Origin: Alphaproteobacteria bacterium | Lineage (GTDB): Bacteria; Pseudomonadota; Alphaproteobacteria; Rhodobacterales; Rhodobacteraceae | Length of the DNA stretch: 46,810 nucleotides | Assembly (NCBI GenBank): GCA_030425145.1 | Contig: JAUHVK010000010.1 | Location: 85,362 to 132,171 of the forward strand | Reading direction: 5' to 3' | Part shown: positions 14,991-41,715 of the stretch, in pieces | Layout of the letters: each line of letters opens with the position of its first letter | Numbering within the stretch: the first letter of the stretch is position 1 | Translations under genes and position numbers: made by a program | The notes under the pieces: generated by a model | What the model was told of the DNA's origin: nothing | Seen by the model: the letters and a program-made list of their open reading frames with translations, nothing else | Database searches by the model: none

Positions 14991-15010
14991 TGCCGGGGCG
15001 AACCCCGGCA
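14991..15010 (-). promoter_or_regulatory. Intercistronic hairpin between Liv binding-protein and livH genes
   Basis: On the minus strand TGCCGGGG, loop TTCG, CCCCGGCA: a perfect 8-bp stem closed by a UUCG tetraloop, an unusually stable RNA hairpin. It starts 15 bases after the binding-protein stop and ends 19 bases before livH. There is no T-run after it in the operon direction. It is best read as a 3'-end stabiliser or partial terminator that sets the binding protein above the membrane parts. Confidence 0.72.
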
Positions 15011-15025
15011 CATCGTTTTATTGTC

Positions 15026-22914: not shown

Positions 22915-22945
22915 CCGGGTGGTCAGTCCTTGAGTGACCACCCGG
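22915..22945 (-). terminator. Terminator hairpin overlapping the end of the CoA-transferase gene
   Basis: CCGGGTGGTCA (22915-22925) and TGACCACCCGG (22935-22945) form a perfect 11-bp stem with a 9-base loop. In the minus direction it is followed by TCTTTTT, making a good intrinsic terminator for the catabolic operon. The stem includes the last codons and stop of the CoA-transferase gene. On the plus strand it also closes the glucose transporter operon, with A's before it and no T-run after. Confidence 0.85.
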
Positions 22946-24077
22946 ATTCACGCACCTGATCGGTATGGGCGCCCAGCTTGGGCGCGGTTCGATCCAGCGC
23001 AAGGTTCGACGTGCTGAAGGTGATCGGCGTACGAACACCCGGCACACCTTCGGGCGTGATCTTCATCCCCCGGTGCACGATCTGCGGATCGTCGAACACT
23101 TCGCCGACCGTGTTGATCGGGGACGAGGCAACCTGTTTGGCCTTCAGCGCTTCAAGCAAATCGGCTTTGGTCAGTTTCGCGGTTTCCGCCTTGAGCATTG
23201 CGATCAGTTCATCGCGGTGCTTCACCCGCCCGGCATTTGTCCGGTAGTCCGGGTTCCCGGCAATATCGGGCCGGTTCACGATCTCGCATAACCCCTGAAA
23301 CTGTCTGTCATTGCCTGACGCGATGATGATGTCACCATCGGACGCCGGGAACACCTCGTACGGCACGATGTTGGGATGCTGGTTGCCCATGCGATTGGGG
23401 GATTCCCCCGTCACGAGGAAGTTCATCGCCTGATTGACAAGACACCCTGTGCCCGCATCCAGCAGGCTCATGTCGATATGCTGGCCTTTACCGCTTGTGT
23501 CGCGTTCACGCAGAGCGGCCTGAATACCGATCACAGCGTAAAGGCCGGTGTAAATGTCCGTGACAGCAACGCCAACTTTCTGCGGCTCACCTGCCGGATC
23601 ACCCGTAATCGACATCAACCCCGACAACCCTTGCACAAGGTAGTCATAACCTGCGCGTTCGGCATAAGGGCCAGTCTGCCCGAAGCCGGTGATTGAGCAG
23701 TAGACAAGCCCTGGATTGACCTCTGACAGGCTGGCATAGTCCAGCCCATATTTCGCAAGCCCGCCGACCTTGAAGTTCTCGATCAGCACATCCGCCTCGC
23801 GGGCGAGCTCTTGCACAAAGGCGCGGCCTTCCTCGGTCGTGAGGTCTGCCGTGACCGAGTATTTGCCGCGGTTGCAGCTATAGAAATAGGCGGCTGACGG
23901 GGTGTCCTCGTCGTCGCGTTCGATGAAGGGAGGGCCCCATGTACGGGTGTCGTCGCCCTTGGGGCTTTCCACCTTGATGACAGTTGCGCCGAGGTCGGCC
24001 AGCGTCTGACCGACAATTGGCCCGGCGAGGATCCGGGCCAATTCAAGAACTTTCAAACCTTCCAGCGGTGCTGACAT
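22923..24077 (-). CDS. CaiB/BaiF-family CoA-transferase (possibly glutarate CoA-transferase)
   Basis: A 384-residue class III CoA-transferase. The N-terminus LEGLKVLELARILAGPIVGQ, the motif YFYSCNRGKYSV and the NFKVGGLAKYGLDY section are family standard. The catalytic Asp is D174 in KVGVAVTDIYTGLYA. It moves CoA from a donor such as succinyl-CoA to a carboxylic acid. Its gene is joined to the glutaryl-CoA dehydrogenase gene (one-base overlap), as in glutarate-using bacteria where this enzyme forms glutaryl-CoA. That substrate is inferred from the pair. It is the last gene of the operon and carries the terminator in its own end. Confidence 0.85.
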   Translation of the reverse strand: MSAPLEGLKVLELARILAGPIVGQTLADLGATVIKVESPKGDDTRTWGPPFIERDDEDTPSAAYFYSCNRGKYSVTADLTTEEGRAFVQELAREADVLIENFKVGGLAKYGLDYASLSEVNPGLVYCSITGFGQTGPYAERAGYDYLVQGLSGLMSITGDPAGEPQKVGVAVTDIYTGLYAVIGIQAALRERDTSGKGQHIDMSLLDAGTGCLVNQAMNFLVTGESPNRMGNQHPNIVPYEVFPASDGDIIIASGNDRQFQGLCEIVNRPDIAGNPDYRTNAGRVKHRDELIAMLKAETAKLTKADLLEALKAKQVASSPINTVGEVFDDPQIVHRGMKITPEGVPGVRTPITFSTSNLALDRTAPKLGAHTDQVRESGWSLKD

Positions 24078-25297
24078 CAGAAGAACGCCTGCAACCCTGT
24101 CTGTGCCCGGCCAAGGATAAGGGCGTGGACGTCGTGCGTGCCCTCATAGGTGTTGACCGTCTCAAGGTTCTGCGCGTGACGCATGACGTGATATTCCGCC
24201 ATGATCCCGTTGCCGCCATGCATGTCGCGGGCATTGCGCGCGATATCCAAAGCCTTGCCGCAATTGTTGCGTTTGATCAGGCTGATCGCTTCGGGCGCGG
24301 CGGTTCCAGCGTCAAGCATCCGGCCCACTTGAAGCGCGGCGTGCAAGCCCAGCGTGATCTCTGTCTGCATGTCGGCGAGTTTCTTCTGGAAAAGCTGTGT
24401 CTGCGCCAGCGGGCGACCAAACTGCGTGCGGTCCAAACCATACTGACGTGCGCGATGCCAGCTATCCTCGGCTGCGCCCATGACACCCCATGCGATGCCA
24501 TAGCGTGCACGGTTCAGACAGCCGAACGGACCTTTGAGGCCCTCAACGCCCGGCAGCAACGCGTCTTCGCCGACTTCAACGTCCTTCATGACGATCTCGC
24601 CGGTGATCGACGCGCGCAGCGACAGCTTGCCGTTGATCTTGGGGGCGCTCAGACCCTTCATGCCTTTTTCAAGAACAAAGCCGCGGATCTTGCCTTCATG
24701 CGCTTCGGACTTGGCCCAGACCACAAACACATCCGCGATCGGGCTGTTCGAGATCCACATCTTGGCGCCGTTGATGACATAGCCGCCGTCGGTTTTCTTG
24801 GCGACGGTCTTCATGCCCGCAGGGTCGGACCCAGCATCGGGTTCGGTCAGGCCAAAGCAGCCGATCAGCGTCCCTGCGGCCAGACCCGGCAGGTATTTCT
24901 TGCGCTGCTCATCGCTGCCATAGGCGTGAATCGGATACATGACGAGCGAGCTTTGCACGCTCATCATCGACCGATAGCCGCTGTCGATCCGTTCGACTTC
25001 ACGCGCGACGAGGCCGTAGCTCACATAGCCGGCGCCCAGACCACCGAACTCTTCGGGGATGGTCACGCCCAAGAGGCCCATCTCGCCCATCTCGGCGAAA
25101 ATCTCGGGGGCAACACCCTCGTTAAGGTACATGTCCGACACGCGCGGCAGCAGCTTGTCTGACGCATAAGCCGCAGCGCTGTCCGCGATCATGCGCTCTT
25201 CCTCGGACAGAGCCGCGCTCAGGCCAAGGGGATCTTGCCAGTCGAATTTGGCGAGTGAGGGTCCGTGACCCGCGTGTGACGCATCAAGCATGTCCAT
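24077..25297 (-). CDS. gcdH: Glutaryl-CoA dehydrogenase-like acyl-CoA dehydrogenase
   Basis: A 406-residue flavoenzyme. Features of decarboxylating glutaryl-CoA dehydrogenases are visible: [18 protein letters not shown], with the Arg that holds the distal carboxylate; the FAD section [32 protein letters not shown]; and the catalytic Glu E385 in [16 protein letters not shown]. The reaction is glutaryl-CoA to crotonyl-CoA + CO2, with electrons passed to ETF. The start at 25297 overlaps the FAD-protein gene by 14 bases; ATG 25291 is also possible. Together with the CoA-transferase it forms a glutarate module. A related branched dicarboxyl-CoA is possible but less likely. Confidence 0.88.
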
Positions 25298-26675
25298 GCT
25301 CCTCTTTCATGTCATTCGCCGCAGCCGATCCGGCGATATGCCCAAGAACCGTCGCTGCCAGCAGCCCATTGCCGGATAGATAACCGCTATCACCGGAACC
25401 TGAAACACCCACTGCAGCACCACCCGCCGCAAAAAGATTCGGGAAGACGCCCCCGGTGGTTCGGCAGACGCGGGCCTCTTGATCGACACGTAATCCGCCT
25501 TGGGTGTGAAACAGTGCTCCAGTCACCTTCACCGCACAGTAAGGCGGTTTCAATGGCTCGCCAAGGAAGCTGCGTCCAAAGGCGTCAGTCCCGTTGGTCG
25601 GGATTTGGGCCAGCGTCTGTTTCAAGCTGGTTTCAGGCAATCCGGTAACCTCTGCCAATTCTACTACCGAATTGGCTGTCCTGATCGCGCCGATGGCTTC
25701 GGCATCCTTGAAGTCCTGAAACTGGCGGGCGATGCCTGCAATGCGGCTGTCGAAAATCGTCCAGGCAATGCCTTCGGGCTGGGCCAGCACAGCGCGCGCG
25801 GCCTCGGAATAGCCCTGGCTTTCGTCCCAGAACCGCGCACCGTTCAGGTTCACCTGCACACCACCTTGGGTGATAACCGCCCAGGTGATCAGGATGCCCT
25901 GTGGATGCGCGACATTGCCGTGACCTTGGTATGCTCCCAGATGCAGCGTGTCTGCCCCGAGCGCCTCACCCCATGTGACGGCATCGCCCTGATTGTAGTC
26001 ATGCCCGAACCAGACCGCGTTTTCGATCTCTGGCATGAACTGGCGGACCATGGCGCGGTTGCCGCCATAGCCGTTGCAAGCAAGGATCAGGACATCGCAA
26101 CCAACATCTTCCGTACCGTTTGGACCCTCCAAACGTACGCCTTTGACGGTGTCGCCGTCCACGAAAAGCGAGGTCGCGCGGCGGTTGCAGATGATGTCGA
26201 TCCCCTGCGCCTCACAGGCGGTGCGCAGCCGGTCGATCAATTCACGCCCCGCGCGGGTGGGAAGCCCATGCATGCGACGGCGGGAATGGCCGGGATAGTC
26301 GAAATCGGTCACGACCGAGAAGGGCAGGTCGAACCTGTCCGCCAGCCATTCGATCACTTTGCCCGATTGGCCCGCCAGCAGATCGACAAGCTCCTGCGGG
26401 TTCTCGCCTTTTGCCTTTTTCTGGATGTCCTGTGCAAACAAGTCCGGAGCGTCCTCGATCCCCGCGTCCCGCTGGAACCGCGTGCCCGCTGCCGGGATCA
26501 GCCCTGCGGACAGGGCGGTGGACCCGGATGGTGCCGAATCTGCCTCGACGACCAGAACCTCGGCCCCGGCATCAGTGGCGGTCAGTGCCGCGACCAGCCC
26601 ACAGGCCCCGGCGCCGACGATCAGGATCGGCACCTCCAGATCGAACCCGGTGTCGGGGGGTGGCAGGATCGACAT
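25284..26675 (-). CDS. FAD-dependent oxidoreductase, fumarate reductase/ketosteroid dehydrogenase type
   Basis: A 463-residue flavoprotein. The dinucleotide site is [23 protein letters not shown] near residues 15-37, and the second FAD-contact motif near the end is [16 protein letters not shown] followed by [10 protein letters not shown]. The middle holds the capping domain ([16 protein letters not shown]). Family members reduce or introduce C=C bonds next to a carboxyl or keto group. In this operon it could reduce or form the double bond of an unsaturated dicarboxylate or ring intermediate. There is no haem or membrane domain, so the electron partner is unknown. The gene follows the lyase gene by three bases. 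Confidence 0.8.
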
Positions 26676-26678
26676 GGC

Positions 26679-27548
26679 TCAGTCGCGCCCGCCGGTTTCG
26701 TAGCGTTTGCCCAAGGCCAGCATCTCGTCCGTGCCAAGGCGGTCATTCAGCCCGCCGAAATCGAACATCCGGTCAGCAAAAGCGCGGTTGCTGCCGGTGG
26801 TCATCAGGCTTTGGTAATAGCTTTCAGCCGTATGCGCCAAGGCACGCACGATCCCGCCGGGGAAGATCACGATGGAGAAGCCAAGGTCGTTCAAGAACGA
26901 CGCGTTCTGGATCGGTGTCGCGCCGCCTTCGACCATGTTGACCAGCAACGGCACGCGATCCTTGAACCGCTCCGTCACTGTCTTCATCTCCTCCACGGAT
27001 CGCAGCGCTTCGATGAATAGTGCATCGGCACCTGCCTCGACATAGGCTTCGGCCCGGTCGATGGCGGCCTCAAACCCTTCGACGGCCACCGCATCGGTGC
27101 GGGCGATGATGAGTGTCTCATCGCTTGCCCGTGCATCCGCCATCGCGGCGATCTTGCCAACCATTTCGGTCGTCGGAATGATCGACTTCTCAGCCAGATG
27201 CCCGCATCGCTTCGGATAGGTCTGATCCTCGACCTGCAAGGCATTGGCCCCCGCGCGTTCGTATAGCCGCATCGTCCGCTGCGCGTTCAGCGCGTTGCCG
27301 AACCCTGTGTCGGCGTCGATGATCACCGGAATGTCCACGCGGTCGCGGATCAGGGCCATCGTGTCCGCCATCTCGCTGACCGAAGTCAGGCCAATGTCCG
27401 GCCGACCCAGCCGCGTATAGGCGACCGCCGCGCCGCTGAGATACAGCGCCTCGAACCCGGCTTGCGCCGCAAGCGCCGCCGTCAGGGCGTCGAACACGCC
27501 CGGAGCGACAAGGATCTCATCAGAGGCAAGGCGGGTTTTCAGGCTCAT
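26679..27548 (-). CDS. Isocitrate lyase/PEP mutase-family C-C lyase (dimethylmalate lyase-like)
   Basis: A 289-residue TIM-barrel enzyme. The metal site residues are in VIIDADTGFGN (D78, D80) and LQVEDQ (E107, D108). The lyase loop is KRCGH, residues 113-117, with catalytic C115, which separates C-C bond lyases from PEP mutases. Relatives include methylisocitrate lyase, oxaloacetate hydrolase and 2,3-dimethylmalate lyase. It should cleave a 2-hydroxy dicarboxylate into a 2-oxo acid plus a carboxylate. The start 27548 overlaps the isochorismatase-like stop by ATGA; the longer frame is rejected. The hydratase across the divergent promoter could make its substrate. Confidence 0.83.
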   Translation of the reverse strand: MSLKTRLASDEILVAPGVFDALTAALAAQAGFEALYLSGAAVAYTRLGRPDIGLTSVSEMADTMALIRDRVDIPVIIDADTGFGNALNAQRTMRLYERAGANALQVEDQTYPKRCGHLAEKSIIPTTEMVGKIAAMADARASDETLIIARTDAVAVEGFEAAIDRAEAYVEAGADALFIEALRSVEEMKTVTERFKDRVPLLVNMVEGGATPIQNASFLNDLGFSIVIFPGGIVRALAHTAESYYQSLMTTGSNRAFADRMFDFGGLNDRLGTDEMLALGKRYETGGRD

Positions 27549-28150
27549 GTCATGGTTTCCAGCATCTCGGCGCAAGTCACATTCGGGCAGATCGATCCGA
27601 GCGAGATCAGCGTGGCGTCGTGCACCTCTTGTTTGAAAGCGGCACATCCATCGGACAGAAGGATGGTGTGCAGGTTCCTCAGATGCGCGTCCCGGACTGT
27701 GCTGGCGACGCCACCGTTTGTGACGATCCCGCCGATGATCAACGTGTCGATATCCAGCGCCCGCAGGATGTATTCGAGCCGCGTCTGGTAGAGCGCGGAA
27801 TAGGCGACCTTTTCGACCGTGTAATCCGCCGGCGCCAAAGCATCGACCAAGTTGTGCCCGAACTTGCCGGGAGCAAAGTCGCCTTTGCCAAGGAAGGGCC
27901 GCAGCTCTTTCAGGTGCGGTGCAATGAGCGGTTCGTCATTCGGCCCCGGCACCAGCGTGAACTGCGCACTGATATAGGTGCCACCCTTGGCGCGCAGCGC
28001 GTCCACAACGGGCTTGATCCGGGCAGGCAGGGCGGAGATCGCCTCGGCAGTCTGACCGGCGCGGCCATAGGCACCTTCGGGGTGCAGAAAGTCGTTCTGC
28101 AGATCGATGGTCAGAAGGGCCGCGCGCTTTGGGTCGATGGTGTGCGCCAT
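27545..28150 (-). CDS. Isochorismatase-superfamily protein lacking the catalytic cysteine
   Basis: A 201-residue alpha/beta hydrolase-like fold. The family Asp is D16 (ALLTIDLQNDF) and the Lys is K114 (TVEKVAYSAL). At the place of the nucleophilic Cys (usually TNxCVEST) this protein has TNGGVAST, that is G147. Amidases such as nicotinamidase and maleamate amidase need the Cys. True isochorismatases, which split a vinyl ether, have a Gly there. So an amidase label is not supported. It may hydrolyse an enol or vinyl ether, or have another role. It lies three bases after hyuA and overlaps the lyase gene by four. Confidence 0.8.
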   Translation of the reverse strand: MAHTIDPKRAALLTIDLQNDFLHPEGAYGRAGQTAEAISALPARIKPVVDALRAKGGTYISAQFTLVPGPNDEPLIAPHLKELRPFLGKGDFAPGKFGHNLVDALAPADYTVEKVAYSALYQTRLEYILRALDIDTLIIGGIVTNGGVASTVRDAHLRNLHTILLSDGCAAFKQEVHDATLISLGSICPNVTCAEMLETMT

Positions 28151-28153
28151 GTC

Positions 28154-30211
28154 TTAATCCTCGTCCCGTGTGATGATGGTGTTACCGCAGGTGTCGACCC
28201 TCGCGGTCAGGCCGGGATCGACCAGAACGGTCGTGTCCGGCTGCACAAGGATCGCGGGGCCTTTGACCTCGGCCCCGACGGGCAGGGAAAGGCGGTTGTA
28301 GATCGCGGTGTCGAACCACGCATCGCCGAAATGCACCTTGCGGGTACCTGTATGTGAGGCTTCGACAGACCCGCCCTTGGGGGCAAGGGTTGTCAGATCG
28401 AACTTGGGTCGCCGCCCGATGACTGCGGTGCGCAGGTTCATCACCCGGCGCGTGCCGTTCTTGAGCAGACGTCCATAGGTGGCCTGGTAGGCGGCATCAA
28501 AGGCCGCTTCGACCTCGGCAATCGTGGGTGCCGTAACAGTGTTCCCCGTGACCGAGATTGGCAGGGGAACGGCGACCGTGTGGGTCTGCCCGACATAGGC
28601 CATGTCCAACTCGACCACGATGTCGCGCGCTTCGAACCGGGATTGTGCAGCGTCCAGCAGGGCCATGCCATCGTCAATATGCTTCTGCATCACCTCGCGC
28701 AGCGCATCGGTGTCGAGCGTCGCGGTCAGCGTGTTGATCGTTTGCACGAAATCCTGCCGCATGTCGGCAATCACACAGCCCATAGCACTGGTCACACCGG
28801 GATAGCGTGGGACAATCGCGCTTCCGATGCCGACCTCTTTCAGGATCGCGCCGGTGTGCAGCGCGCCACCGCCGCCAAAGGGCATGAAGGCGAACCGCTT
28901 GGGATCGAACCCGCGTTCGATGCTGACCAGACGGATCGCGCCCGCCATGCGCGAATTGGCGACGCGCAGAATGGCTTCGGCAGCCTCGATGGTGGTCAGG
29001 CCAAGCTTTGATCCGACATGGATGTCGATGGCCTTTGCCGCCGCATCCACATCCAGACGGCTCAGCTTTCCCCCGATGGGATTGTCGGGGTCGATGCGGC
29101 CCAGCACGACATTGGCGTCGGTCACGGTCGGCCGGTCATTGCCCTGACCATAGGCCACCGGTCCGGGTGTCGATCCGGCACTTTCAGGCCCAATGTTCAG
29201 CAAACCACCCTTGTCGACCCACGCGATGGAGCCGCCACCGGCACCAATCGTCGTGATCTCGATCATCGGGTTGCGCACCACCATGCCGAAGTCGATGGAG
29301 GTCTGCGGTGACAGCATGGACTGCCCCTTGGCAATCAGCGCTACGTCAAAGCTGGTGCCGCCCATGTCGCCCGTGATCACATTGACGAACCCAGCGGTCG
29401 TTGCGATATGCCCGGCAGCGATCACACCGGCGGCGGGGCCGGACAGAGCGGTCCGAATGGGTAAGCGGCAGGCGGTGTCGGTGCCCATGACGCCGCCATT
29501 TGACTGCACGATCATGAACTCGCCACCGAACCCGCCCTTGGTCAGGGCCTGGTCCAATCGGTTGATATAACCCGACACTTCGGGTTGCAGATAGGCGTTC
29601 AGCGCGGTGGTCGAGAAGCGTTCGAATTCGCGGATTTCCGGCAGGATTTCCGACGAACAGCTGACATGATCGTTGGGCCACATGGCGCGGACGGCTTCAA
29701 CGGCCTTGGCCTCGTTTTCCGCATTGGCATAGGCGTTCGCAAACAGGATCGCGACAGCCAGACAGCCTTCGTCGATCAATTGCTTTGCAGCGGCCTTGAC
29801 CGCGTCCAGATCGACGGGCGTGCGAATTGTGCCGTCGGCAAGTGTCCGCTCCGGCACTTCCAACCGCAGGTTTCGCGGAACAACGGGTTCGAAATCGCCA
29901 CGCAGGCCCCATGTGCGGGGTCTGTCGCGGCGGCGCATTTCAAGAACGTCGCGGAGTCCGTGAGTGGTGATCACGCCGATCTTTGCGCCTTTGCGCTCGA
30001 GCAGAGCATTGGTTCCGGCGGTGGTGCCATGCACGACCGCCGCGACAGTAGACAGGTCATCGACCTGCTGGCCAATGCCATCCAGAAATCCGCCTGACTG
30101 ATCAGGGCGTGTGGTTGGCACCTTGGCCACGTCTGCCGTGCCGGTGGCCTCGTTCAGCACGAAGACATCCGTAAACGTGCCGCCAACATCGACGCCAATC
30201 ATCTTACTCAT
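28154..30211 (-). CDS. Hydantoinase/oxoprolinase family subunit A (HyuA)
   Basis: A 685-residue ATP-binding subunit. The N-terminal actin-like ATPase loop is MIGVDVGGTFTDVFVL. The hydantoinase A core includes ALSGPAAGVIAAGHIA, GDMGGTSFDVALIAKG, TIGAGGGSIAW, TPGPVAYGQG and FMPFGGGGALH. With HyuB it forms an ATP-dependent enzyme that opens lactam, hydantoin or imide-type rings (5-oxoprolinase, N-methylhydantoinase). Some relatives carboxylate ketones instead. ATG 30211 has AGAGG upstream and overlaps the hyuB stop (ATGA). Which ring or ketone is used cannot be told from the motifs. Confidence 0.87.
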   Translation of the reverse strand: MSKMIGVDVGGTFTDVFVLNEATGTADVAKVPTTRPDQSGGFLDGIGQQVDDLSTVAAVVHGTTAGTNALLERKGAKIGVITTHGLRDVLEMRRRDRPRTWGLRGDFEPVVPRNLRLEVPERTLADGTIRTPVDLDAVKAAAKQLIDEGCLAVAILFANAYANAENEAKAVEAVRAMWPNDHVSCSSEILPEIREFERFSTTALNAYLQPEVSGYINRLDQALTKGGFGGEFMIVQSNGGVMGTDTACRLPIRTALSGPAAGVIAAGHIATTAGFVNVITGDMGGTSFDVALIAKGQSMLSPQTSIDFGMVVRNPMIEITTIGAGGGSIAWVDKGGLLNIGPESAGSTPGPVAYGQGNDRPTVTDANVVLGRIDPDNPIGGKLSRLDVDAAAKAIDIHVGSKLGLTTIEAAEAILRVANSRMAGAIRLVSIERGFDPKRFAFMPFGGGGALHTGAILKEVGIGSAIVPRYPGVTSAMGCVIADMRQDFVQTINTLTATLDTDALREVMQKHIDDGMALLDAAQSRFEARDIVVELDMAYVGQTHTVAVPLPISVTGNTVTAPTIAEVEAAFDAAYQATYGRLLKNGTRRVMNLRTAVIGRRPKFDLTTLAPKGGSVEASHTGTRKVHFGDAWFDTAIYNRLSLPVGAEVKGPAILVQPDTTVLVDPGLTARVDTCGNTIITRDED

Positions 30212-31902
30212 GTCGATGCCTCTTTCCATGCGGGGCCGTAGAGATCAGTCGCGGCATCTGGCGTCAGGTATCCAAGCGCTACATCTTGCGCGACTTCGTG
30301 TGCGTCGCGGCTGGTGGCCGGGCCGTAGCCGCCGCCTCCGGGTGTCTCAAGGCGCACAGCCTGTCCCTTGGTCAGCTTGATTCCCAGCATTTTTGACGCC
30401 AGCGGCGGGGTCTTCCACCCGTCTGCTTGTTCATAGTGAAACACGTTCATCGCGCCGTCCCCGCCGCCCTGAACACCTTGCGGGGCAAAACGACCACGTT
30501 CGCCGAACAAGAACGCCTCGGCGTTCTCCTCAAGCACTTCGATCTCATAGGTCGCGCCCAGACCACCACGATGCTGACCTGCGCCAGCGCTGTCTGGACG
30601 AAGTGCCCATTGGCGGAACATGACCGGATAAGCCGCTTCAAGGATCTCCATCGGCGGGATCGTTGCTGTGGAAATCGGCGCGTTGCCGTGGTTCAGACCG
30701 TCTGACTCGCTGCTGCCGCCATGTCCGCCGCCGTAGAAGCTGAACATCACCCAGCGTTGCCCGTTTGCCCGCTTGCCCGCAATCGACAGCGCATTGATCG
30801 TGCCATAGGCATTGGCGACAACACGATCAGGTGCCGCTTGCGATGCTGCGCTAAAGATCACGTCGATCATGCGCAGGATGGTTTCGGTATAGCCACCGAC
30901 CGGGGCCGGGAATTCGGCAGACAAAAGAGATCCGTCGGGCACGCGCACATCAATCGGGCGCATGACACCGGCATTGGCGGGCAGGTCGGGAAAGATGTGC
31001 TTGATCGCGACATAAGCCGTCGCCACTGCGGTCGGGTAGGCGATGTTCACCGGTCCAGCGGTCACAGGCGCAGTGCCCTCGAAATCCAGCACCATCCGAT
31101 CGCCCTTGATCTCAAGCGCAACCTTGATCGGCAGGGCCACATCGGTGATCCCGTCATTGTCGAGGTAATCAACAGCCTCCCAACGCCCGTCCGGCAGATC
31201 GGACAGTTCGGACCGCATGAGGGTTTCGGCCCGGTTTCCAAGCGCATCAAGCGCGGCAGAAACTGTTTCGCCCCCGTATTCGTCCAGCAATTCGTCCAGT
31301 CGTTTGACGCCCAGATCCAGCGCGCCCAACTGGCCGTTTAAATCCCCCATCGCCGATTGCGGCAGGCGGGTGTTGCGGAGCAGAATGTCGATAATGTCTT
31401 GCTGGATCACCCCTTCGCGCGCCAGCTTGACGGGTGGCAGAATGAACGCCTCCTGAAACGCCTCGGTCGCGGACGGATTATAGTTGCCGGGCACAGCACC
31501 GCCCACATCATGCCAATGACCCACACTCGCGAGGTAGCAAAACAGCTTGCCATCCCGAAAATACGGGCGCACCAGCCGCATGTCAGACAGGTGCGTGCCG
31601 CCCATATGCGCGTCGTTGAAGATATAAATGTCGCCATCAGCCAGATCACCGGCCTCGGCGGCTTTGTCGATCACCGCTTTCACGGCAAAGGCCATGACAC
31701 CAACAAAAATCGGCAGGCCTGATTTGCCCTGCACCAGCGTGTCACCGCTGTCGGCATGATAAAAGCCATGCGATGCATCATGCGCTTCGGCGATGATCGG
31801 GTTAAAGGCTGCACGGAACAGGGTCGCGTCCATCTCGTCGGCAATCTGTTCCATACGTCCGGCAAGAACGGCGAGGGTGATCGGGTCAATAGCTGCACTC
31901 AT
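30208..31902 (-). CDS. Hydantoinase/oxoprolinase family subunit B (HyuB)
   Basis: A 564-residue partner of HyuA. Typical segments are ITLAVLAGRMEQIADEMDATL, DGDIYIFNDAHMGGTHLSD, GHWHDVGGAVPG, RMDVIF-type region at ILRMIDVIFSAASQ, the Gly-rich FYGGGHGGSSESDG and the end RLETPGGGGYGPA. Family members are the catalytic partner of the ATP-using subunit. The start at 31902 (MSAAIDPITLAV) is chosen because the family begins there. It overlaps the tautomerase-fusion gene by four bases. The two subunits are encoded side by side in B-A order. Confidence 0.87.
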   Translation of the reverse strand: MSAAIDPITLAVLAGRMEQIADEMDATLFRAAFNPIIAEAHDASHGFYHADSGDTLVQGKSGLPIFVGVMAFAVKAVIDKAAEAGDLADGDIYIFNDAHMGGTHLSDMRLVRPYFRDGKLFCYLASVGHWHDVGGAVPGNYNPSATEAFQEAFILPPVKLAREGVIQQDIIDILLRNTRLPQSAMGDLNGQLGALDLGVKRLDELLDEYGGETVSAALDALGNRAETLMRSELSDLPDGRWEAVDYLDNDGITDVALPIKVALEIKGDRMVLDFEGTAPVTAGPVNIAYPTAVATAYVAIKHIFPDLPANAGVMRPIDVRVPDGSLLSAEFPAPVGGYTETILRMIDVIFSAASQAAPDRVVANAYGTINALSIAGKRANGQRWVMFSFYGGGHGGSSESDGLNHGNAPISTATIPPMEILEAAYPVMFRQWALRPDSAGAGQHRGGLGATYEIEVLEENAEAFLFGERGRFAPQGVQGGGDGAMNVFHYEQADGWKTPPLASKMLGIKLTKGQAVRLETPGGGGYGPATSRDAHEVAQDVALGYLTPDAATDLYGPAWKEAST

Positions 31903-32459
31903 TGCGCGCGCACCTCGGCCATGTCGTTCCAAACGTCCTGACGCACGATCTTGTCGCGCATGATTTCAAAGCGGTCGATAAAGCGAATGCCCTCGAACGG
32001 TGTGCCGTCCATCCATTCGCCATAAAGTGTGCCGCGCACGTAAACGACAGCAACGCCGTCGCTGTGCATCGCATCGAACCCGTCATAGGTTTTTTTCACA
32101 AAGCGATAGCGGCCCTTGGACCATTCGATCAGCTCGGACAGCTGCGTCATCGGCCCGGTCGCGGGAAACACCATCTGAAACCCGTCGCCCAGCATCGATT
32201 GCGCCTTGTCCAGATCGCGGGCCTCCATCGCGGAAAGGTAGTCGCGCACAATTTGAGTGGGATCTGGCAGCGCCGGAGCTGGTTTGCGATGCTGGCCGCC
32301 CCGCGCATACGCTTCGGATGGGTATTCGTGCAGCATCACGGTGATAGCCTCATCCGGCGCCGGCACAACAAACCGAATCGCGTCGGTCAGGGCCGAAGTG
32401 AGGCGGGATTTCTCGGTGGGGCTGTATCCTTCAAGGATGTGGGCTTCCACGATTGGCAT
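31899..32459 (-). CDS. Tautomerase-SnoaL (NTF2-like) fusion protein
   Basis: A 186-residue two-domain protein and the first gene of the catabolic operon. Residues 1 to about 62 form a 4-oxalocrotonate tautomerase-type domain; MPIVEAHILEGYSP gives the catalytic amino-terminal Pro after Met removal. After a short Pro-rich linker (RKPAPALPDP), residues about 68-180 form an NTF2/SnoaL-like domain (VRDYLSAMEARDLDKAQSML, then FDAMHSDGVAVVYVRGTL, IRFIDRFEIMRDKIVRQDVW). The first part should shift double bonds in enol/keto acids. The second often forms a hydrophobic pocket for small ligands. ATG 32459 is chosen because Pro must be residue 2. The fusion is unusual and its substrate unknown. Confidence 0.8.
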   Translation of the reverse strand: MPIVEAHILEGYSPTEKSRLTSALTDAIRFVVPAPDEAITVMLHEYPSEAYARGGQHRKPAPALPDPTQIVRDYLSAMEARDLDKAQSMLGDGFQMVFPATGPMTQLSELIEWSKGRYRFVKKTYDGFDAMHSDGVAVVYVRGTLYGEWMDGTPFEGIRFIDRFEIMRDKIVRQDVWNDMAEVRAQ

Positions 32460-32499
32460 ATGATCCTCCCCAAAATCTGCTCTTTTCGTATAACAGGTT

Positions 32500-32519
32500 T
32501 TGGTATATTGAAAGACCAA
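32500..32519. promoter_or_regulatory. Inverted repeat in the divergent promoter region, candidate GntR operator
   Basis: TTGGT (32500-32504) and ACCAA (32515-32519) are inverted around an AT-rich 10-base centre. The site lies between the tautomerase-fusion gene (minus) and the GntR/HutC-type regulator gene (plus), exactly where one operator could control both arms. The outer arms are perfect; the centre is not symmetric. The binding protein is inferred from position only. Confidence 0.4.
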
Positions 32520-32547
32520 TGAATGAAGAATCTTCGCTGGATCATCC

Positions 32548-33384
32548 ATGCGACCACGAAGATCGCCAACCAACAGGGGCCGCGCTGTCGTGACATTGAA
32601 CGCGCATTCCGGACTTCCAGAAGGCGGTAAGGCCCGCAGGGTTTACCTGTTGTTGCGCGACGAAATTTCAAACGGTGTCTTCAAAGAAGGGGCGCGGCTT
32701 CCGGGTGAGCACAAACTGGCCGAGCAGTTCGACGTGTCCCGCATCACCATCCGCCGCGCGCTCGAAGCGTTGGCCGCCGATGGATGGATTGAGAAGAAAA
32801 CTGGCGCTGGGTCGGTCGTGCGTGCGCAAGAGCAGGCTGGCCAAAGGCTGTCTGCCGATTTCGCGACACTGATCCCGCATTTGGTCGAGATGGATCGAAA
32901 GACAACCGCGCGGCTGCTGTCCTTTTCCTATGACAGCGCACCTGCGGCGGTGGCCGAGGCGTTGGGCATCCCAGAAGGGGCGGATGTGCAAAAGGCAGTG
33001 CGTGTGCGGTCCTCGGGTGGTCAGCCGTTTTCGCACCTCACCACTTATGTTCCGAAAAACATCGCCCTCAGTTACGACGAGGCCGACCTTGCAACCCAGC
33101 CGCTGTTCCGCTTGCTCGAACGCAGCGGGGTAAGCGTCGCCAGCGCGCATCAGACCGTGACCGCAGCACTTGCTACACCGGATGTGGCCGAGGCGCTGGA
33201 GGTGTCGGTCGGGTCGCCGCTGCTCTTTGTGCAAAGGATCGTGCGGGATGCAAATGGACAGGGGGTCGAACACCTGTCCGCGCTCTACCGTCCCGATCTG
33301 TTCCGGCTCGAAATGAGCCTTGCGCGGGTAGGCGCTGGCGAAGCGCGGCATTGGGAACCGGTGATCGGAGGAGCCTCCAAATGA
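32548..33384 (+). CDS. GntR-family (HutC subgroup) regulator of the divergent catabolic operons
   Basis: A 278-residue regulator from ATG 32548. The winged helix-turn-helix is near residues 30-95 (YLLLRDEISNG, KLAEQFDVSRITIRRALEAL, DGWIEKKTGAGS). The C-terminal UTRA effector domain follows (LSFSYDSAPAAVAEALGI, FSHLTTYVPKNIA, LFVQRIVRDANGQ). HutC-type regulators usually repress and are released by a pathway metabolite. The start is uncertain: GTG 32590 (15th codon) is also possible and neither has a strong ribosome site. The stop overlaps the LeuC-like gene (ATGA), so the regulator is co-translated with the hydratase. Confidence 0.85.
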   Translation: MRPRRSPTNRGRAVVTLNAHSGLPEGGKARRVYLLLRDEISNGVFKEGARLPGEHKLAEQFDVSRITIRRALEALAADGWIEKKTGAGSVVRAQEQAGQRLSADFATLIPHLVEMDRKTTARLLSFSYDSAPAAVAEALGIPEGADVQKAVRVRSSGGQPFSHLTTYVPKNIALSYDEADLATQPLFRLLERSGVSVASAHQTVTAALATPDVAEALEVSVGSPLLFVQRIVRDANGQGVEHLSALYRPDLFRLEMSLARVGAGEARHWEPVIGGASK

Positions 33385-34781
33385 CCGGTTGCCGTCTTCT
33401 CGACAAGCTGTGGGATGCGCATGAAATCCTGCGTCGTGAAGACGGAACCAGCCTGCTGTGGGTAGACCGCCATCTGGTCCACGAAGGATCGCACCACGCC
33501 TTTGCCAAGATCGCAGAGCGGGGTGTTCCGGTGGCCGAGCCGGGCCTGACCTTTGGTGTGGCCGATCACTATGCGCCGACGCGCGGCCGGCCCGCGACAG
33601 ACGCGATTGCGCGGATGATCACAACGTTGGCGGCGAACACCGAGAAACACGGGATCACCTGCTTCGGCCTCGACGATCCGCGTCAGGGCATCGTGCATGT
33701 GATCGGGCCGGAACAGGGGCTGACCCTGCCGGGGTTGCTGATCAATTGCGGCGACAGCCATACATCGACACATGGCGCCTTCGGGGCCTTAGCCTTTGGC
33801 ATTGGCGCGACCGAGGTAGCGCATGTGCTGGCGACGCAGACGGTCTGGCAGAAGAAACCCAAGGCGATGCGGATCGACGTGACCGGGCGGCTTGGGCCTG
33901 GCGTTGGCGCCAAGGATCTTGCTCTGGCTTGGATTGCCAAACTGGGCGCGGATGGCGCGCGGGGGCATGCCATTGAATATACCGGCCCTTCTGTGCGGGC
34001 GTTGTCGATGGAAGGGAGGATGACGCTCTGCAACCTCTCTATCGAAGGCGGAGCCCGGTTCGGGATGATCGCGCCGGATGAGACCACTTTTGCCTATGTC
34101 AAAGGCCGTCCTTTTGCGCCCAGCGGCGCAGACTGGGACCGTGCGGTCGGACAGTGGTCCGAACTACCGTCCGACTTGGATGCGGAGTTCGAAACCGAAG
34201 TGACGATGGACGCGTCCGAGATCGCACCCATCGTAACTTGGGGGACAACGCCGGAAGACGCATTGCCGGTGACAGCCACCATCCCGGACCCCGCGCGGAT
34301 GCAAGGCAGCGCCGCAGATCGCGCACGCAATGCGCTGGACTACATGGGCCTCACGCCGGGGCGCAAGCTGACCGAGATCGCCGTGGATCAGGTGTTTATC
34401 GGGTCCTGCACGAATGCCCGCATCGAAGACCTGCGCGCGGCGGCGGCGGTTCTGGCCGGGCGACGGGCCAAGGTTCCGGGGATTGTGTCCCCCGGTTCGC
34501 AACAGGTCAAAGCGCAGGCCGAGGCAGAGGGGCTGGACCGCATCTTTATCGACGCAGGTCTCGACTGGGTTGGCTCCGGCTGTTCGATGTGTGTGGCGAT
34601 GAACGGCGACCATGTAGAGCCGGGCAAACGCTGCGCCTCGACCACCAACCGCAACTTCCGCGGTCGTCAGGGGCGCGACGCACGCACGCATCTGATGTCG
34701 CCCGCAATGGTCGCGGCGGCTGCGGTGACCGGGCATCTCACGGATGTGCGCGAGCTTCTGAAAGAGCGGGAGGTCGCATGA
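33381..34781 (+). CDS. LeuC-type (aconitase family) hydratase, large subunit
   Basis: A 466-residue Fe-S (de)hydratase subunit. The iron-sulfur cysteines are C343 (FIGSCTNAR), C401 and C404 (SGCSMC). Other family segments are LLINCGDSHTSTHGAFGALAFGIGATEVAHV (split) and FRGRQGRDARTHLMSPAMV near the end. It would normally be called 3-isopropylmalate dehydratase. The catabolic neighbours make a related activity more likely, such as hydration of an alkylated maleate, as done by dimethylmaleate hydratase. The start 33381 overlaps the regulator stop. It is coupled by ATGA overlap to the small subunit. Confidence 0.85.
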   Translation: MTGCRLLDKLWDAHEILRREDGTSLLWVDRHLVHEGSHHAFAKIAERGVPVAEPGLTFGVADHYAPTRGRPATDAIARMITTLAANTEKHGITCFGLDDPRQGIVHVIGPEQGLTLPGLLINCGDSHTSTHGAFGALAFGIGATEVAHVLATQTVWQKKPKAMRIDVTGRLGPGVGAKDLALAWIAKLGADGARGHAIEYTGPSVRALSMEGRMTLCNLSIEGGARFGMIAPDETTFAYVKGRPFAPSGADWDRAVGQWSELPSDLDAEFETEVTMDASEIAPIVTWGTTPEDALPVTATIPDPARMQGSAADRARNALDYMGLTPGRKLTEIAVDQVFIGSCTNARIEDLRAAAAVLAGRRAKVPGIVSPGSQQVKAQAEAEGLDRIFIDAGLDWVGSGCSMCVAMNGDHVEPGKRCASTTNRNFRGRQGRDARTHLMSPAMVAAAAVTGHLTDVRELLKEREVA

Positions 34782-35425: not shown

Positions 35426-35465
35426 CACAGGCCATGACGGCCAAAGGGTGTAGGAGGAACTATCC

Positions 35466-36479
35466 ATGAATATGAACTTGCTAAAAAGCTGCGTTGCAGG
35501 TGGCGTGCTGCTCGGGTCCGTGGCCCAGGCGGAAGAGACCATCACGGCGGTTCACGCGTTTCCCGAAACGCTGATCTACACGCAAAGCTTCCTGTCCTTC
35601 GTGGACAAGGTGAACGCGGCAGGTGAAGGCGTGATCCAGATCGAAGTCCGCGGCGGCCCCGAGGCCATCGGGATGTTCCAGCAGCCCGATGCGGTGCGCG
35701 ACGGGATCGTGGACATGGTCTACACGCCGGGTTCGTTCTACGGCGGCGCGCTGCCCGAGAAAGACGCGCTTGTGGCGTCGAACCTGACCGCCATCGAAAC
35801 CCGTGAAAATGGCGGGATCGAGCTGATCGACCAGATCCATCAGGAACGCATGGGACTCAAGTATCTCGGCTGGTTCGACAGCGGTGTCTGCTACAACCTC
35901 TGGACCCGCAACGAGCCGTCCTTTGATGCCGATGGCAACCTCGAAGTGGACGGCCTGCGCCTGCGCGGCAACGCGGTCTACAACGCTTTCTTCACCAACT
36001 ACCTTCAGGCTCAGGTGATCGACCTGCCAACAGGTGAGGTGTACTCCGCGCTCCAGAATGGTGTGGTGGATGCGACAGGCTGGACTCAGATCGGCCTGAT
36101 CGACCTCAAGTGGAATGAGTTCCTTAACTACCGGATCGAGCCTTGCTTCTTCTCGACCGACCTTGGTGTGATCGTGAATCTCGACTCGTGGAACGGTCTG
36201 AGCGACGAAGCGAAGACCATCCTTCAGGACACCGCGATCCAGCACGAAATCGACAGCGTGAACGCCCTGCGCACCAAGCGGGACGAAGATTTCGCAGCCC
36301 TTGATGCCGCCGGCATGAATGTTGTTTCGCTCGAAGGTGAGGCGAAAGCCAACTACCTCGCCGCCGCCCGCGAAACAACATGGGCGCGCATGAAAGAGCT
36401 GATGGAAGCAGAGCCGCAATCCGTTGCGAGCTATGACGACGTGATCGCCAAGTTCTACGATCCGGCCGCAGACAAGTAA
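35466..36479 (+). CDS. TRAP transporter solute-binding protein (DctP family)
   Basis: A 337-residue periplasmic binding protein. The signal peptide is NLLKSCVAGGVLLGSVAQA, with cleavage before EET. The mature region includes FVDKVNAAGEGVIQIEVRGG, the ligand-facing Arg in GLRLRGNAVYNAFF, and LQNGVVDATGWTQIGLIDLKWNEF. TRAP binding proteins nearly always take organic acids, so an organic acid is likely the substrate of the pathway encoded on both sides of the regulator. AGGAGG lies before ATG 35466. A hairpin follows the stop. Confidence 0.87.
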   Translation: MNMNLLKSCVAGGVLLGSVAQAEETITAVHAFPETLIYTQSFLSFVDKVNAAGEGVIQIEVRGGPEAIGMFQQPDAVRDGIVDMVYTPGSFYGGALPEKDALVASNLTAIETRENGGIELIDQIHQERMGLKYLGWFDSGVCYNLWTRNEPSFDADGNLEVDGLRLRGNAVYNAFFTNYLQAQVIDLPTGEVYSALQNGVVDATGWTQIGLIDLKWNEFLNYRIEPCFFSTDLGVIVNLDSWNGLSDEAKTILQDTAIQHEIDSVNALRTKRDEDFAALDAAGMNVVSLEGEAKANYLAAARETTWARMKELMEAEPQSVASYDDVIAKFYDPAADK

Positions 36480-36486
36480 GACTATC

Positions 36487-36510
36487 GGGTCGGGGCACCT
36501 GTCCCGGCCC
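36487..36510 (+). promoter_or_regulatory. Intercistronic hairpin between dctP- and dctQ-type genes
   Basis: GGGTCGGG (36487-36494) pairs with CCCGGCCC (36503-36510), eight pairs with one G-U, around an 8-base loop. It lies just after the binding-protein stop (36479) and 23 bases before the small-permease start. There is no T-run after it. It is likely an mRNA stabiliser that favours the binding protein. Confidence 0.65.
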
Positions 36511-36533
36511 ACCACACTCATACGGAAGACCCC

Positions 36534-37040
36534 ATGCGCGCCGTGACCCGCGTCTATGACGCCCTGCTTTATACGATGGCTTTCATCGCAGCCGTGACTC
36601 TTGTCTGGCTCATGGTGTCGGTGGTCGTGTCCGTTCTGATGCGCAATCTGGGGCTTCAGCCCTTTGCATGGCTCTTCACCTCTGCCGAATACGGCATTCT
36701 TTACATGACGATGCTCGGCGCGCCGTGGCTGGTGCGCGAAAAGGGGCATGTGCATATCGAACTGGTGACCGCCGCCCTGCCGGGACCGCTGCGGCGGTTC
36801 GTAAGCCGTATGGTCGCTGCGCTCTGCGTGCTCGTCTGTGTAATCCTTGCATGGTACGGGTTGCAGCTTTTCCTGACAAATATCGAGCGCAACAACTATG
36901 ATGTGCGCGCCTATTACTATCCCCGTTGGCTGCTGACCGTAACCTTTCCCATCGCCTTTTCGGTGATGGCGATCGAGTTCTCGCGGTTCGTGTTCGGGTC
37001 TGACCTCATGCACTCGGGTGAAGCGGGGATTCACGAATAA
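36534..37040 (+). CDS. TRAP transporter small permease (DctQ family)
   Basis: A 168-residue membrane protein with four hydrophobic segments, as usual for the Q subunit. The first is LYTMAFIAAVTLVWLMVSVVVSV (shortened here), and then LGAPWLVREKGHVHIELV holds the family signature. It couples the binding protein to the large permease in sodium-driven uptake. The end overlaps the M-subunit start by one base (TAATGG). Confidence 0.85.
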   Translation: MRAVTRVYDALLYTMAFIAAVTLVWLMVSVVVSVLMRNLGLQPFAWLFTSAEYGILYMTMLGAPWLVREKGHVHIELVTAALPGPLRRFVSRMVAALCVLVCVILAWYGLQLFLTNIERNNYDVRAYYYPRWLLTVTFPIAFSVMAIEFSRFVFGSDLMHSGEAGIHE

Positions 37041-38350
37041 TGGAATGGTTCGAAGCCCTTGGTCTGCTGGTCGGCAGCATCATGTTCCTTATGGCAATCG
37101 GTATGCCCGTCGCGCTTGCCTTTCTTGCCGCCAATATCATCGGCGCGTGGGTGTTCATGGGGGGCGACCGTGGCGTCGTCGCGCTGCTGAACAACGGATG
37201 GGGTGCGCTGACGATCTTTGCGCTGGTGCCGATCCCGCTTTTCCTGCTCATGGGCGAGATCTTTTTCCAGACCGGGTTGGGCAGTCGCATGTTCTCGGCC
37301 ATCGACAAGCTGTTGGGCCGGCTGCCCGGGCGTCTGAGCTATGTCACCGTTCTGGGCGGCACCGGGTTTTCCACGCTGTCGGGGTCGTCGATGGGTTCAA
37401 CTGCGCTCTTGGGTTCGCTGATGGTGCCGGAAATGAACCGGCGCGGGTACAAGAGCCATATGTCCATCGGTCCGATCCTTGGGACAGGCGGTCTGGCCAT
37501 CATCATCCCGCCGTCGGCGCTTGCCGTGCTGCTGGCAACACTGGCCAAGATTGACGTGGGCGCGCTGCTGATCGCCGGGGTGATCCCCGGTCTGATCCTG
37601 GCCGCGTTCTATGTCGCCACGATCTATATCCAGACCCAGATGGACCCGGACGCCGCGCCGGCCTATGACGTGGAGCCGATGTCGGCGGGTCAGAAAATCG
37701 GCATCCTGATGCGTGATGTGGTGCCGATGATCGGCCTGATGGTCGCCATCGTCATCATGATGATCAACGGCATTGTCACCCCGTCGGAAGCCGCCGCGTT
37801 TGGCGCGCTGGGCGTGCTGATCCTTGCGGCCTTCTATCGCTGCCTGACATGGGATGCTGTCAAGAAATCCGTGCGCGGTGCGCTGCGCGTGACGCTTATG
37901 GCCTATCTGATCGTCTTTGGCTCTGCGACCTTCAGCCAGCTTCTGGCGTTTTCCGGCGCGTCCCGCGGGTTGATCAACTGGGCCACGGGTTTTGATCTGG
38001 ACCCGACGCTGATGCTCTTGGTGATGTTCGGAGTGCTGCTGCTTCTTGGAATGTTCATGGAGCAGATCTCGATCATGCTTCTGACCGTGCCGATCTTCTT
38101 CCCGCTGGCGCAGACGCTGGGGTTCGATCCGATCTGGTTCGGTCTGATCATGCTTCTGTCGTTGGAGATCAGTTTTACAACACCACCATTCGGTCTGCTT
38201 CTTTTCGTGATGAAAGGCGTGGCGCCACCGCACACCACCATGCGCGAGATTTATCGAGCGGCGATCCCGTTCATCCTGTGCTCGCTTCTTGTCGTCGCGC
38301 TTTTGATTCTGTTCCCACCGCTGGCGACATGGCTGCCGGGGCTTGGCTGA
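37040..38350 (+). CDS. TRAP transporter large permease (DctM family)
   Basis: A 436-residue membrane protein with about twelve hydrophobic segments. Family features are IPLFLLMGEIFFQTGLGSRMF, GGTGFSTLSGSSMGSTALLG, MVPEMNRRGYKSHMS, the motif IIIPPSALAVLL and, near the end, LSLEISFTTPPFGLLLFVMKGVAP (in pieces). This is the ion-coupled channel. It is the last gene of the plus-strand operon started by the GntR regulator. A small hairpin GCCCA-ATAAA-TGGGC follows some 65 bases after the stop, with TTTTT another 14 bases on. Confidence 0.87.
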   Translation: MEWFEALGLLVGSIMFLMAIGMPVALAFLAANIIGAWVFMGGDRGVVALLNNGWGALTIFALVPIPLFLLMGEIFFQTGLGSRMFSAIDKLLGRLPGRLSYVTVLGGTGFSTLSGSSMGSTALLGSLMVPEMNRRGYKSHMSIGPILGTGGLAIIIPPSALAVLLATLAKIDVGALLIAGVIPGLILAAFYVATIYIQTQMDPDAAPAYDVEPMSAGQKIGILMRDVVPMIGLMVAIVIMMINGIVTPSEAAAFGALGVLILAAFYRCLTWDAVKKSVRGALRVTLMAYLIVFGSATFSQLLAFSGASRGLINWATGFDLDPTLMLLVMFGVLLLLGMFMEQISIMLLTVPIFFPLAQTLGFDPIWFGLIMLLSLEISFTTPPFGLLLFVMKGVAPPHTTMREIYRAAIPFILCSLLVVALLILFPPLATWLPGLG

Positions 38351-39938: not shown

Positions 39939-39942
39939 CGCC

Positions 39943-40884: not shown

Positions 40885-40905
40885 AGCCAATCATGCCCGG
40901 TCTGC

Positions 40906-41703: not shown

Positions 41704-41715
41704 AGGCAGACCCAA

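Follow-up and report, generated by a model that had tools for sequence, protein, structure and literature searches.

The stretch of DNA analysed here (46,810 nucleotides, hereafter the window) comes from an alphaproteobacterium of the family Rhodobacteraceae (GenBank assembly GCA_030425145.1, contig JAUHVK010000010.1, positions 85,362 to 132,171) and carries, at 22923-38350, fourteen genes in two divergent operons, which encode a LeuCD-type hydratase, a lyase of the isocitrate lyase/phosphoenolpyruvate (PEP) mutase family, a putative ring opener (HyuAB), a TRAP importer and a candidate glutarate module (Table 1). Comparison with related loci identifies this cluster as a real and widespread catabolic unit, and we propose that it acts on a five-membered cyclic imide, a succinimide or maleimide bearing a 2-carboxyethyl group, which would be converted to glutarate. 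Substrate and reactions are both predicted from sequence, and we rate this proposal slightly above even, with a probability of about 0.52.

In the proposed pathway, the TRAP importer would take up the acid, and HyuAB, together with an isochorismatase-fold protein devoid of the usual catalytic cysteine, would open the ring and release ammonia, leaving a vicinal diacid. If the ring is saturated, the flavin adenine dinucleotide (FAD) enzyme of the cluster would introduce a carbon-carbon double bond, as tricarballylate dehydrogenase does, and the tautomerase might move a misplaced double bond. The hydratase would then add water to give an alkylated malate, which the lyase would split into glutarate and a 2-oxo acid; with a methyl group as the second substituent, this acid would be pyruvate. 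Finally, CaiB would transfer coenzyme A (CoA) from succinyl-CoA to glutarate and glutaryl-CoA dehydrogenase (GcdH) would yield crotonyl-CoA and CO2.

Recurrence of the gene set around the lyase

Relatives of the cluster were collected mainly through its lyase, which is present at ≥54% identity in 74 of the 394 genomes of the family (counted by hand, the window's own included); a threshold of E ≤ 1e-60 gives 90 of 394 and takes in more distant lyases. Neighbourhoods were fetched for 60 of the 74 genomes. Further loci came from a scan of a genome collection (best 80 of 514 relatives kept), a search with the isochorismatase-fold protein in 385 genomes of the class (matches at E ≤ 1e-45 in 26), a search of 398 genomes of the phylum with the lyase (15 at E ≤ 1e-85), a search of 349 genomes of family f193 with the Burkholderia plantarii lyase as query (40 at E ≤ 1e-95, from which 20 stretches were taken) and plasmid records (30 and 36 matched, 11 regions opened). 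Once identical lyases, lyases below 54% identity and loci shorter than 5 kb had been dropped, 183 distinct lyase loci remained (individual loci are given by L numbers). The window itself stands outside this sample, which is skewed towards its close relatives; many of the loci are shortened by contig ends or stretch limits, and gene linkage was judged within 11 kb of the lyase.

The usual companions of the lyase in these loci are an aconitase-type hydratase, the FAD enzyme (148 of 183) and a ring opener, and the importers are of the TRAP, Liv-type ABC or Tct-type. The spread of the lyase (74 of 394 family genomes) and the return of the gene set from locus to locus make the cluster more than a chance arrangement. 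A preliminary description of this DNA had listed the divergent set of fourteen genes, including a lyase with a KRCGH motif, and all of them were recovered with Pfam and NCBIfam profiles and from translations; it had proposed a search for conservation of the whole set in other genomes, and this showed a conserved core that does not include CaiB and GcdH, either of which accompanies only 17 of the 183 lyases. The nearest named relatives by lyase are seven Marivita records (86-98% identical), with an eighth Marivita record at 75%.

A compact version (L273) lies on plasmid p1 of Burkholderia plantarii, which is typed as conjugative, and transposase genes flank the unit on both sides; for these reasons the pathway looks mobile. 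Reduced versions were seen at L301, L302, L304 and L306, where only the hydratase, the lyase and GntR were recognised, plus a TctC-like gene in two of them, and there the substrate is probably the acid itself. Genes of the Asp/Glu/hydantoin racemase family stand beside the unit in L269 (14497-15923), L248-L250, L152, L155, L160 and L162.

Three exchangeable sets of ring openers

HyuA or HyuB was found in 153 of the 183 loci, an allantoinase/hydantoinase-like amidohydrolase in seven and a PuuE-like pair in three, with no ring opener within 11 kb in the remaining 20. The usual set is HyuAB plus the isochorismatase-fold protein, and all seven amidohydrolase loci are devoid of both. The exchange can be followed in family f193, where the order small hydratase subunit-HyuB-HyuA-isochorismatase-fold protein-FAD enzyme-lyase (L311, L319) has a counterpart in the order small subunit-amidohydrolase-FAD enzyme-lyase (L296, L313, L315, L317, L324, L326); L320 has the latter order with a TctC-like frame in between. 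All seven amidohydrolases keep the DAHMH metal motif, and they score with models for allantoinase, hydantoinase and hydantoin-5-propionate amidohydrolase. In L273, L297 and L298, two PuuE-like proteins are accompanied by an isochorismatase-fold protein that has the Cys in all three loci (L155, a HyuAB locus, also has a weaker PuuE-like gene, which at 40% missed the 45% threshold and was left uncounted).

Cyclic imide degradation runs by an imidase and a half-amidase. The replacement sets found here share with it ring openers from families that hold imidases and a partner of amidase fold; they differ in the hydratase and lyase downstream, and the main version of the cluster differs further in using HyuAB with a Cys-less partner. 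Two reports relate the cyclic imide hydrolase of Pseudomonas putida and HxnM of Aspergillus to PuuE (PMC9304392), and group an imidase with dihydropyrimidinase, hydantoinase and allantoinase (PMC9863593). Both replacement sets, two of the three ring-opener sets, thus belong to imidase-containing families.

Since three non-homologous sets of ring hydrolases substitute for one another beside the same lyase, the comparison supports the prediction that the cluster opens a cyclic imide or amide. The chemistry that the three sets are predicted to share is hydrolysis of a ring, be it an imide, a hydantoin or a cyclic amide; of these, only a five-membered imide would give a vicinal diacid, the kind of substrate required by an aconitase-type hydratase.

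HyuA scores 510 bits with the alpha model of caprolactamase and HyuB 313 bits with the beta model, both under the curated cut-offs of 1000 for caprolactamase CapAB; HyuA also matches N-methylhydantoinase in the PDB (E 4e-132). In the isochorismatase-fold protein, alignment to RutB places Gly-Gly at the position of the catalytic Cys. Cys is absent from that place in all 144 distinct sequences compared, among them the window's own, and D16 and K114 are near-invariant, so that the loss of the Cys remarked on in the preliminary description is real and conserved. Half-amides of dialkylmaleic acids expel ammonia through attack by the neighbouring carboxylate, and for this reason the Cys could be dispensable if the adjacent carboxylate of such a substrate stands in for it. 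This proposal fits the amidohydrolase loci, since those have no isochorismatase-fold protein. Alternatively, the Cys-less protein may hydrolyse an enamine. Public records label this HyuAB-linked family as cysteine hydrolase.

Hydratase, lyase and FAD enzyme

The genome (4.9 Mb) holds a second LeuC, with its own LeuD, that is 57% identical to the LeuC of the cluster. The second pair scores higher with both models, at 791.6 bits against 632.9 for leuC (TIGR00170, cut-off 560.25) and 267.5 against 184.3 for leuD (TIGR00171, cut-off 116.25), and because both pairs pass the cut-offs the models cannot separate them. In plant and archaeal enzymes a loop of LeuD decides substrate preference (PMC7308503). 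The sequence of this loop is ARFMS in the cluster LeuD and KQFLK in its paralogue, and among 103 distinct LeuD-type relatives ARFMS was found in 87 and KQFLK in one. A role for the cluster pair in leucine biosynthesis was rejected on account of the better-scoring second pair with its different loop; the comparison thus supports a hydratase distinct from the leucine enzyme of the genome. Placed above equivalog cut-offs despite a better-scoring LeuCD in the same genome, the cluster pair is a trap for automatic annotation.

LeuCD is the hydratase of 98 of the 183 loci, while 57 have a pair of the HacAB/DmdAB class and six a PrpD-family gene alone. In the other 22 none of these was seen, and at least five such loci (L165, L272, L295, L300, L305) have ≥8 kb on each side of the lyase. 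Two classes of aconitase-type hydratase therefore serve the same lyase. The small subunits of L268 and L273 exceed the LeuD/DmdB cut-off, and in 61 distinct sequences of this other small-subunit class the third place of the YMK-like loop is Lys in 45 and Arg in five. A positive residue at that place would suit a substrate with a distal carboxylate, in line with work on methanogen homoaconitase.

The lyase scores 294.8 bits with the prpB model (cut-off 354.4), far ahead of its scores with models of isocitrate lyase, and lies under every equivalog cut-off. Among solved structures, carboxyphosphonoenolpyruvate mutase and methylisocitrate lyases come closest to it in sequence (E 5e-56 to 3e-51), followed by petal death protein (3e-50) and 2,3-dimethylmalate lyase (3e-48). 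Its NMVEGG segment matches the NMIEGG of petal death protein and not the EFG of the methylisocitrate lyases among the matches listed. Petal death protein is described as an enzyme that cleaves alpha-keto and alpha-hydroxy acids (title of a reference cited in PMC7609661).

The FAD enzyme scores 232 bits with TIGR01813 (cut-off 285). With two models of the tricarballylate dehydrogenase TcuA it reaches 165 bits (cut-off 369) and 109.5 bits (cut-off 372.55), both under the curated cut-offs.

Linkage of GcdH and CaiB to the lyase

The best NCBIfam match of CaiB is the succinate-glutarate CoA-transferase model NF052585 (536.5 bits), and its structural matches are 4ed9 (CaiB/BaiF family, E 1e-147) and then 9br6 (succinate-hydroxymethylglutarate CoA-transferase, E 7e-90). 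GcdH matches the solved glutaryl-CoA dehydrogenases 3gnc (E 5e-175) and 1sir (1.6e-165), and is the sole copy found in its genome at E ≤ 1e-120. Because GcdH is near-universal in the family, its mere presence in a genome is uninformative and was dropped as evidence; what counts is linkage. High identity to the cluster GcdH was likewise discarded as a marker, as four genomes with no lyase match carry an 85-88% identical GcdH, unlinked and with CaiB absent.

The 17 linked loci comprise 14 of the Rhodobacteraceae type (12 with both genes, L070 and L086 with GcdH only), L199, L309 and L273; L199 (CaiB without GcdH) and L309 (a 41% CaiB at a contig end) were not taken as full linkages. In L273 the order is GntR-LeuC-LeuD-FAD enzyme-lyase-porin, followed by the beta and alpha subunits of an electron transfer flavoprotein, GcdH (67%) and CaiB (53%). 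In Tistrella (L201, L207, L209) the order is HyuB-HyuA-isochorismatase-fold protein-GcdH-CaiB-LeuC-LeuD, and the lyase lies on another contig (L248-L250) with GntR, Liv genes, the FAD enzyme, a PrpD-like gene and racemase-family genes. By our own estimate (22 kb of 4.4 Mb), GcdH would fall within 11 kb of the lyase by chance in about 0.5% of genomes, and CaiB was found near none of 20 unlinked GcdH genes (8-9.5 kb fetched).

A tree of 33 GcdH proteins, from which six Marivita-type loci and three duplicate short loci had been omitted, unites the linked Rhodobacteraceae copies in one clade (99/95) surrounded by unlinked copies of the family. The Tistrella copies make up a separate clade (100/100) that clusters with unlinked GcdH from other Alphaproteobacteria, and the B. 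plantarii protein sits on a long branch in the Tistrella half. An earlier tree of 34 rows agrees on the Rhodobacteraceae and Tistrella groups. These groupings support separate recruitment of GcdH and CaiB in Rhodobacteraceae and in Tistrella; as the linked Rhodobacteraceae copies form one clade, the linkage count was held at three lineages. The two genes are outside the conserved core, yet have been recruited more than once. Because GcdH and CaiB joined the lyase set in three lineages, the product of the lyase is probably glutarate, and the earlier worry that the glutarate module is independent of the rest is weakened, without being removed.

Organisation of the cluster and its surroundings

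Read outward from the divergent promoter, the minus strand encodes the tautomerase-SnoaL fusion, HyuB, HyuA, the isochorismatase-fold protein, the lyase, the FAD enzyme, GcdH and CaiB, and the plus strand GntR-UTRA, LeuC, LeuD, DctP, DctQ and DctM, with adjacent genes mostly overlapping or abutting. The chosen gene starts differ slightly from the longest open reading frames for the lyase, the tautomerase fusion, GntR, LeuC and LeuD. A palindrome, GTATN8ATAC, occurs in 46 of 94 divergent regions of relatives (shuffled mean 0.44), but is absent from the divergent region of the window and from the six Marivita-type regions checked; a single operator governing both operons is plausible.

Table 1 Features of the divergent cluster, with positions in the window.
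Feature	Position	Strand	Basis
CaiB family III CoA-transferase, probably succinyl-CoA:glutarate	22923..24077	-	PF02515; NF052585
Glutaryl-CoA dehydrogenase (GcdH)	24077..25297	-	PDB glutaryl-CoA dehydrogenase matches
FAD enzyme, flavocytochrome c / tricarballylate dehydrogenase type, proposed alkylsuccinate dehydrogenase	25284..26675	-	PF00890
Isocitrate lyase/PEP mutase-family lyase with KRCGH	26679..27548	-	PF13714
Isochorismatase-fold protein, Cys replaced by Gly	27545..28150	-	PF00857
HyuA	28154..30229	-	PF01968, PF05378, PF19278
HyuB	30208..31902	-	PF02538
Fusion of 4-oxalocrotonate tautomerase domain (Met-Pro start) and SnoaL-like domain	31899..32459	-	PF01361; PF12680 just under cut-off
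Divergent promoter/operator region	32460..32589	.	Palindrome search in relatives
GntR/UTRA (HutC-like) regulator	32590..33384	+	PF00392, PF07702
LeuC-type large hydratase subunit, paralogue of the genome's other LeuC	33381..34781	+	PF00330; TIGR00170
LeuD-type small hydratase subunit, own substrate-recognition loop	34778..35425	+	TIGR00171
TRAP binding protein DctP	35466..36479	+	PF03480
TRAP small permease DctQ	36534..37040	+	PF04290
TRAP large permease DctM	37040..38350	+	PF06808; TIGR00786 above cut-off

Elsewhere in the window, an operon at 38514-42456 encodes a circularly permuted ATP-grasp protein, an alpha-E domain protein, a transglutaminase-like protein and a protein with weak similarity to the proteasome (Pfam E 1.6e-4), which we take to resemble the known Anbu neighbourhood. 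At 11646-18521, an ABC importer of the branched-chain amino-acid type adjoins a histidine kinase and a response regulator.

Discussion

Enormous amounts of haem and chlorophyll are formed and degraded, and their breakdown yields imides of the kind proposed here: hematinic acid derives from tetrapyrroles such as haem, and dihydrohematinic acid from the reduced ring of chlorophylls. These two compounds are the natural substrates that would fit the predicted reactions best, and hematinic acid is our first choice for a single substrate. Two reports place hematinic acid in senescent leaves and lake sediments (PMC7318184) and name it as a product of ChuS-mediated haem cleavage in bacteria (PMC11442138). 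In the literature searched, which lacked most subscription journals and was screened for hematinic acid by titles and opening lines of abstracts, we found no bacterial pathway that consumes hematinic acid and no description of this gene set; the preliminary description, too, knew of no described pathway with these genes, and the novelty of the cluster is provisional. A dedicated route for the last tetrapyrrole fragments, in which hematinic acid and, via the FAD enzyme, dihydrohematinic acid would be imported, opened by HyuAB with its Cys-less partner, hydrated and cleaved to pyruvate and glutarate, and which would be widespread in marine Rhodobacteraceae, other Alphaproteobacteria and Burkholderiales, is a tentative extension of the imide-to-glutarate proposal that we regard as possible rather than probable.

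The preliminary description drew its analogy from dimethylmaleate. In the nicotinate fermentation of Eubacterium barkeri, the dimethylmaleate branch uses DmdAB and Dml, and the likeness holds in that a two-subunit hydratase of the aconitase family and a lyase of the isocitrate lyase family stand in one cluster, with small subunits of the LeuD/DmdB class in cluster relatives. The cluster differs in its link to ring openers, CaiB and GcdH and in having no upstream nicotinate genes, and a Pfam scan of 40 window proteins found neither a B12 mutase nor methylitaconate isomerase. The lower branch of the methylcitrate cycle, in which 2-methylisocitrate gives pyruvate and succinate, is a closer chemical model, because the proposed substrate is its homologue with one extra CH2. 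There, 2-methylaconitate hydratase and PrpB act in the way predicted here, a trisubstituted maleate being hydrated and a PrpB-like lyase releasing pyruvate and a dicarboxylate, and some cluster relatives carry MmgE/PrpD-family genes. In contrast to that branch, the lyase of the cluster lies under the prpB cut-off, its hydratase is of the LeuCD/HacAB-type instead of AcnB/AcnD, and the predicted product is glutarate where the methylcitrate branch gives succinate. A full methylcitrate cycle was rejected, since the PrpD family (PF03972) had no match in the window's genome (0 of 1) whereas the control search was positive in 7 of 14 named genomes. Use of tricarballylate by TcuA resembles the proposed route in that an FAD enzyme of the same broad family feeds an aconitase-type hydratase, but the FAD enzyme of the cluster is under the TcuA cut-off and no further Tcu gene was seen in the cluster. 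As in known glutarate use, CaiB and GcdH are adjacent in the window; here they are tied to a ring opener/lyase operon under GntR.

Several points weigh against the conversion of an imide to glutarate. All three ring-opener families also contain enzymes that hydrolyse hydantoin or allantoin, most HyuAB enzymes use ATP to open lactams or hydantoins and imides require no ATP, and the isochorismatase-fold protein is without its amidase Cys. Among the 20 loci with no ring opener, 11 have ≥8 kb on each side and no sign of a split cluster; five others are shortened (L132, L309, L310, L321, L325), L328 has 7.7 kb on its shorter side, and the three Tistrella-type loci L248-L250 have HyuAB elsewhere in the genome. 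Regarding the glutarate module, CaiB is under the curated NF052585 cut-off of 750, 14 of the only 17 linked loci belong to close Rhodobacteraceae-type relatives, and the third recruitment, in B. plantarii, rests on gene order, as the tree holds no unlinked burkholderial GcdH. Moreover, of 55 genomes that have the cluster or the isochorismatase-fold protein 54 contain GcdH, as do 32 of 33 family genomes with no lyase match. Finally, no measured feature separates a methyl from a hydrogen substituent.

This last point leaves room for an unmethylated homologue, the strongest competitor, which we nevertheless consider unlikely. In this case 3-(2-carboxyethyl)succinimide or butane-1,2,4-tricarboxylate would be the starting compound, the FAD enzyme would form cis-homoaconitate, the hydratase homoisocitrate, and the lyase would release glyoxylate and glutarate. 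The resemblance of the FAD enzyme to tricarballylate dehydrogenase, the glutarate module and the alternative small subunit, from a LeuD/DmdB class that includes homoaconitase, all agree with such a route. However, the preference of the lyase for PrpB over isocitrate lyase models speaks against it, neither malate synthase nor glyoxylate carboligase is among the annotated neighbours in L268-L271 and L273 (from an incomplete gene table), and we know of no abundant natural imide of this type.

It is also unlikely, and next in weight, that GcdH and CaiB are incidental and that the substrate of the core is a different alkylated maleate or malate, which would give for instance propionate or succinate and a 2-oxo acid. 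The 166 of 183 lyase loci with neither gene linked, and the near-universal occurrence of GcdH in the family, agree with this explanation, but it does not account for linkage in three lineages, in Tistrella within a HyuAB-LeuCD operon, for the low chance of such proximity, or for the consistent separation of CaiB from unlinked GcdH genes.

An improbable alternative is the use of a lactam, hydantoin or ureide, in which HyuAB would open valerolactam or hydantoin and glutarate would arise via an amino acid. The closest models and structures of HyuAB (caprolactamase and, for HyuA, N-methylhydantoinase), the racemase-family genes of L269 and the Tistrella-type lyase loci, and the model scores of the replacement amidohydrolase point this way; the window's cluster, however, holds no aminotransferase or semialdehyde dehydrogenase by Pfam, and the hydratase and lyase are left unexplained. 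Least probable of all is a nicotinate-like route, with HyuAB and the Cys-less protein as a two-part enamidase that turns 6-oxotetrahydronicotinate into 2-formylglutarate, en route to dimethylmaleate as in E. barkeri or, by deformylation, to glutarate, for although a single amidohydrolase replaces HyuAB and the isochorismatase-fold protein together (an enamidase would likewise be one amidohydrolase), Gly for Cys suits enamine hydrolysis, as in isochorismatase, and some relatives share the hydratase class of E. barkeri, the window's cluster has no B12 mutase, methylitaconate isomerase or nicotinate hydroxylase, and the PuuE version has a Cys-bearing partner that fits a half-amide rather than an enamine.

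Even with another side chain, the cluster would join an imide pathway to a glutarate-forming lyase, a combination that we did not find in the literature searched. If the imide-to-glutarate proposal is true, it would assign a function to a large group of proteins that are currently labelled as leucine enzymes, as members of the 'isocitrate lyase/phosphoenolpyruvate mutase family', as 'hydantoinase/oxoprolinase' or as 'cysteine hydrolase', and with hematinic acid as substrate the operon would fill a gap in the recycling of the last fragments of haem and chlorophyll.

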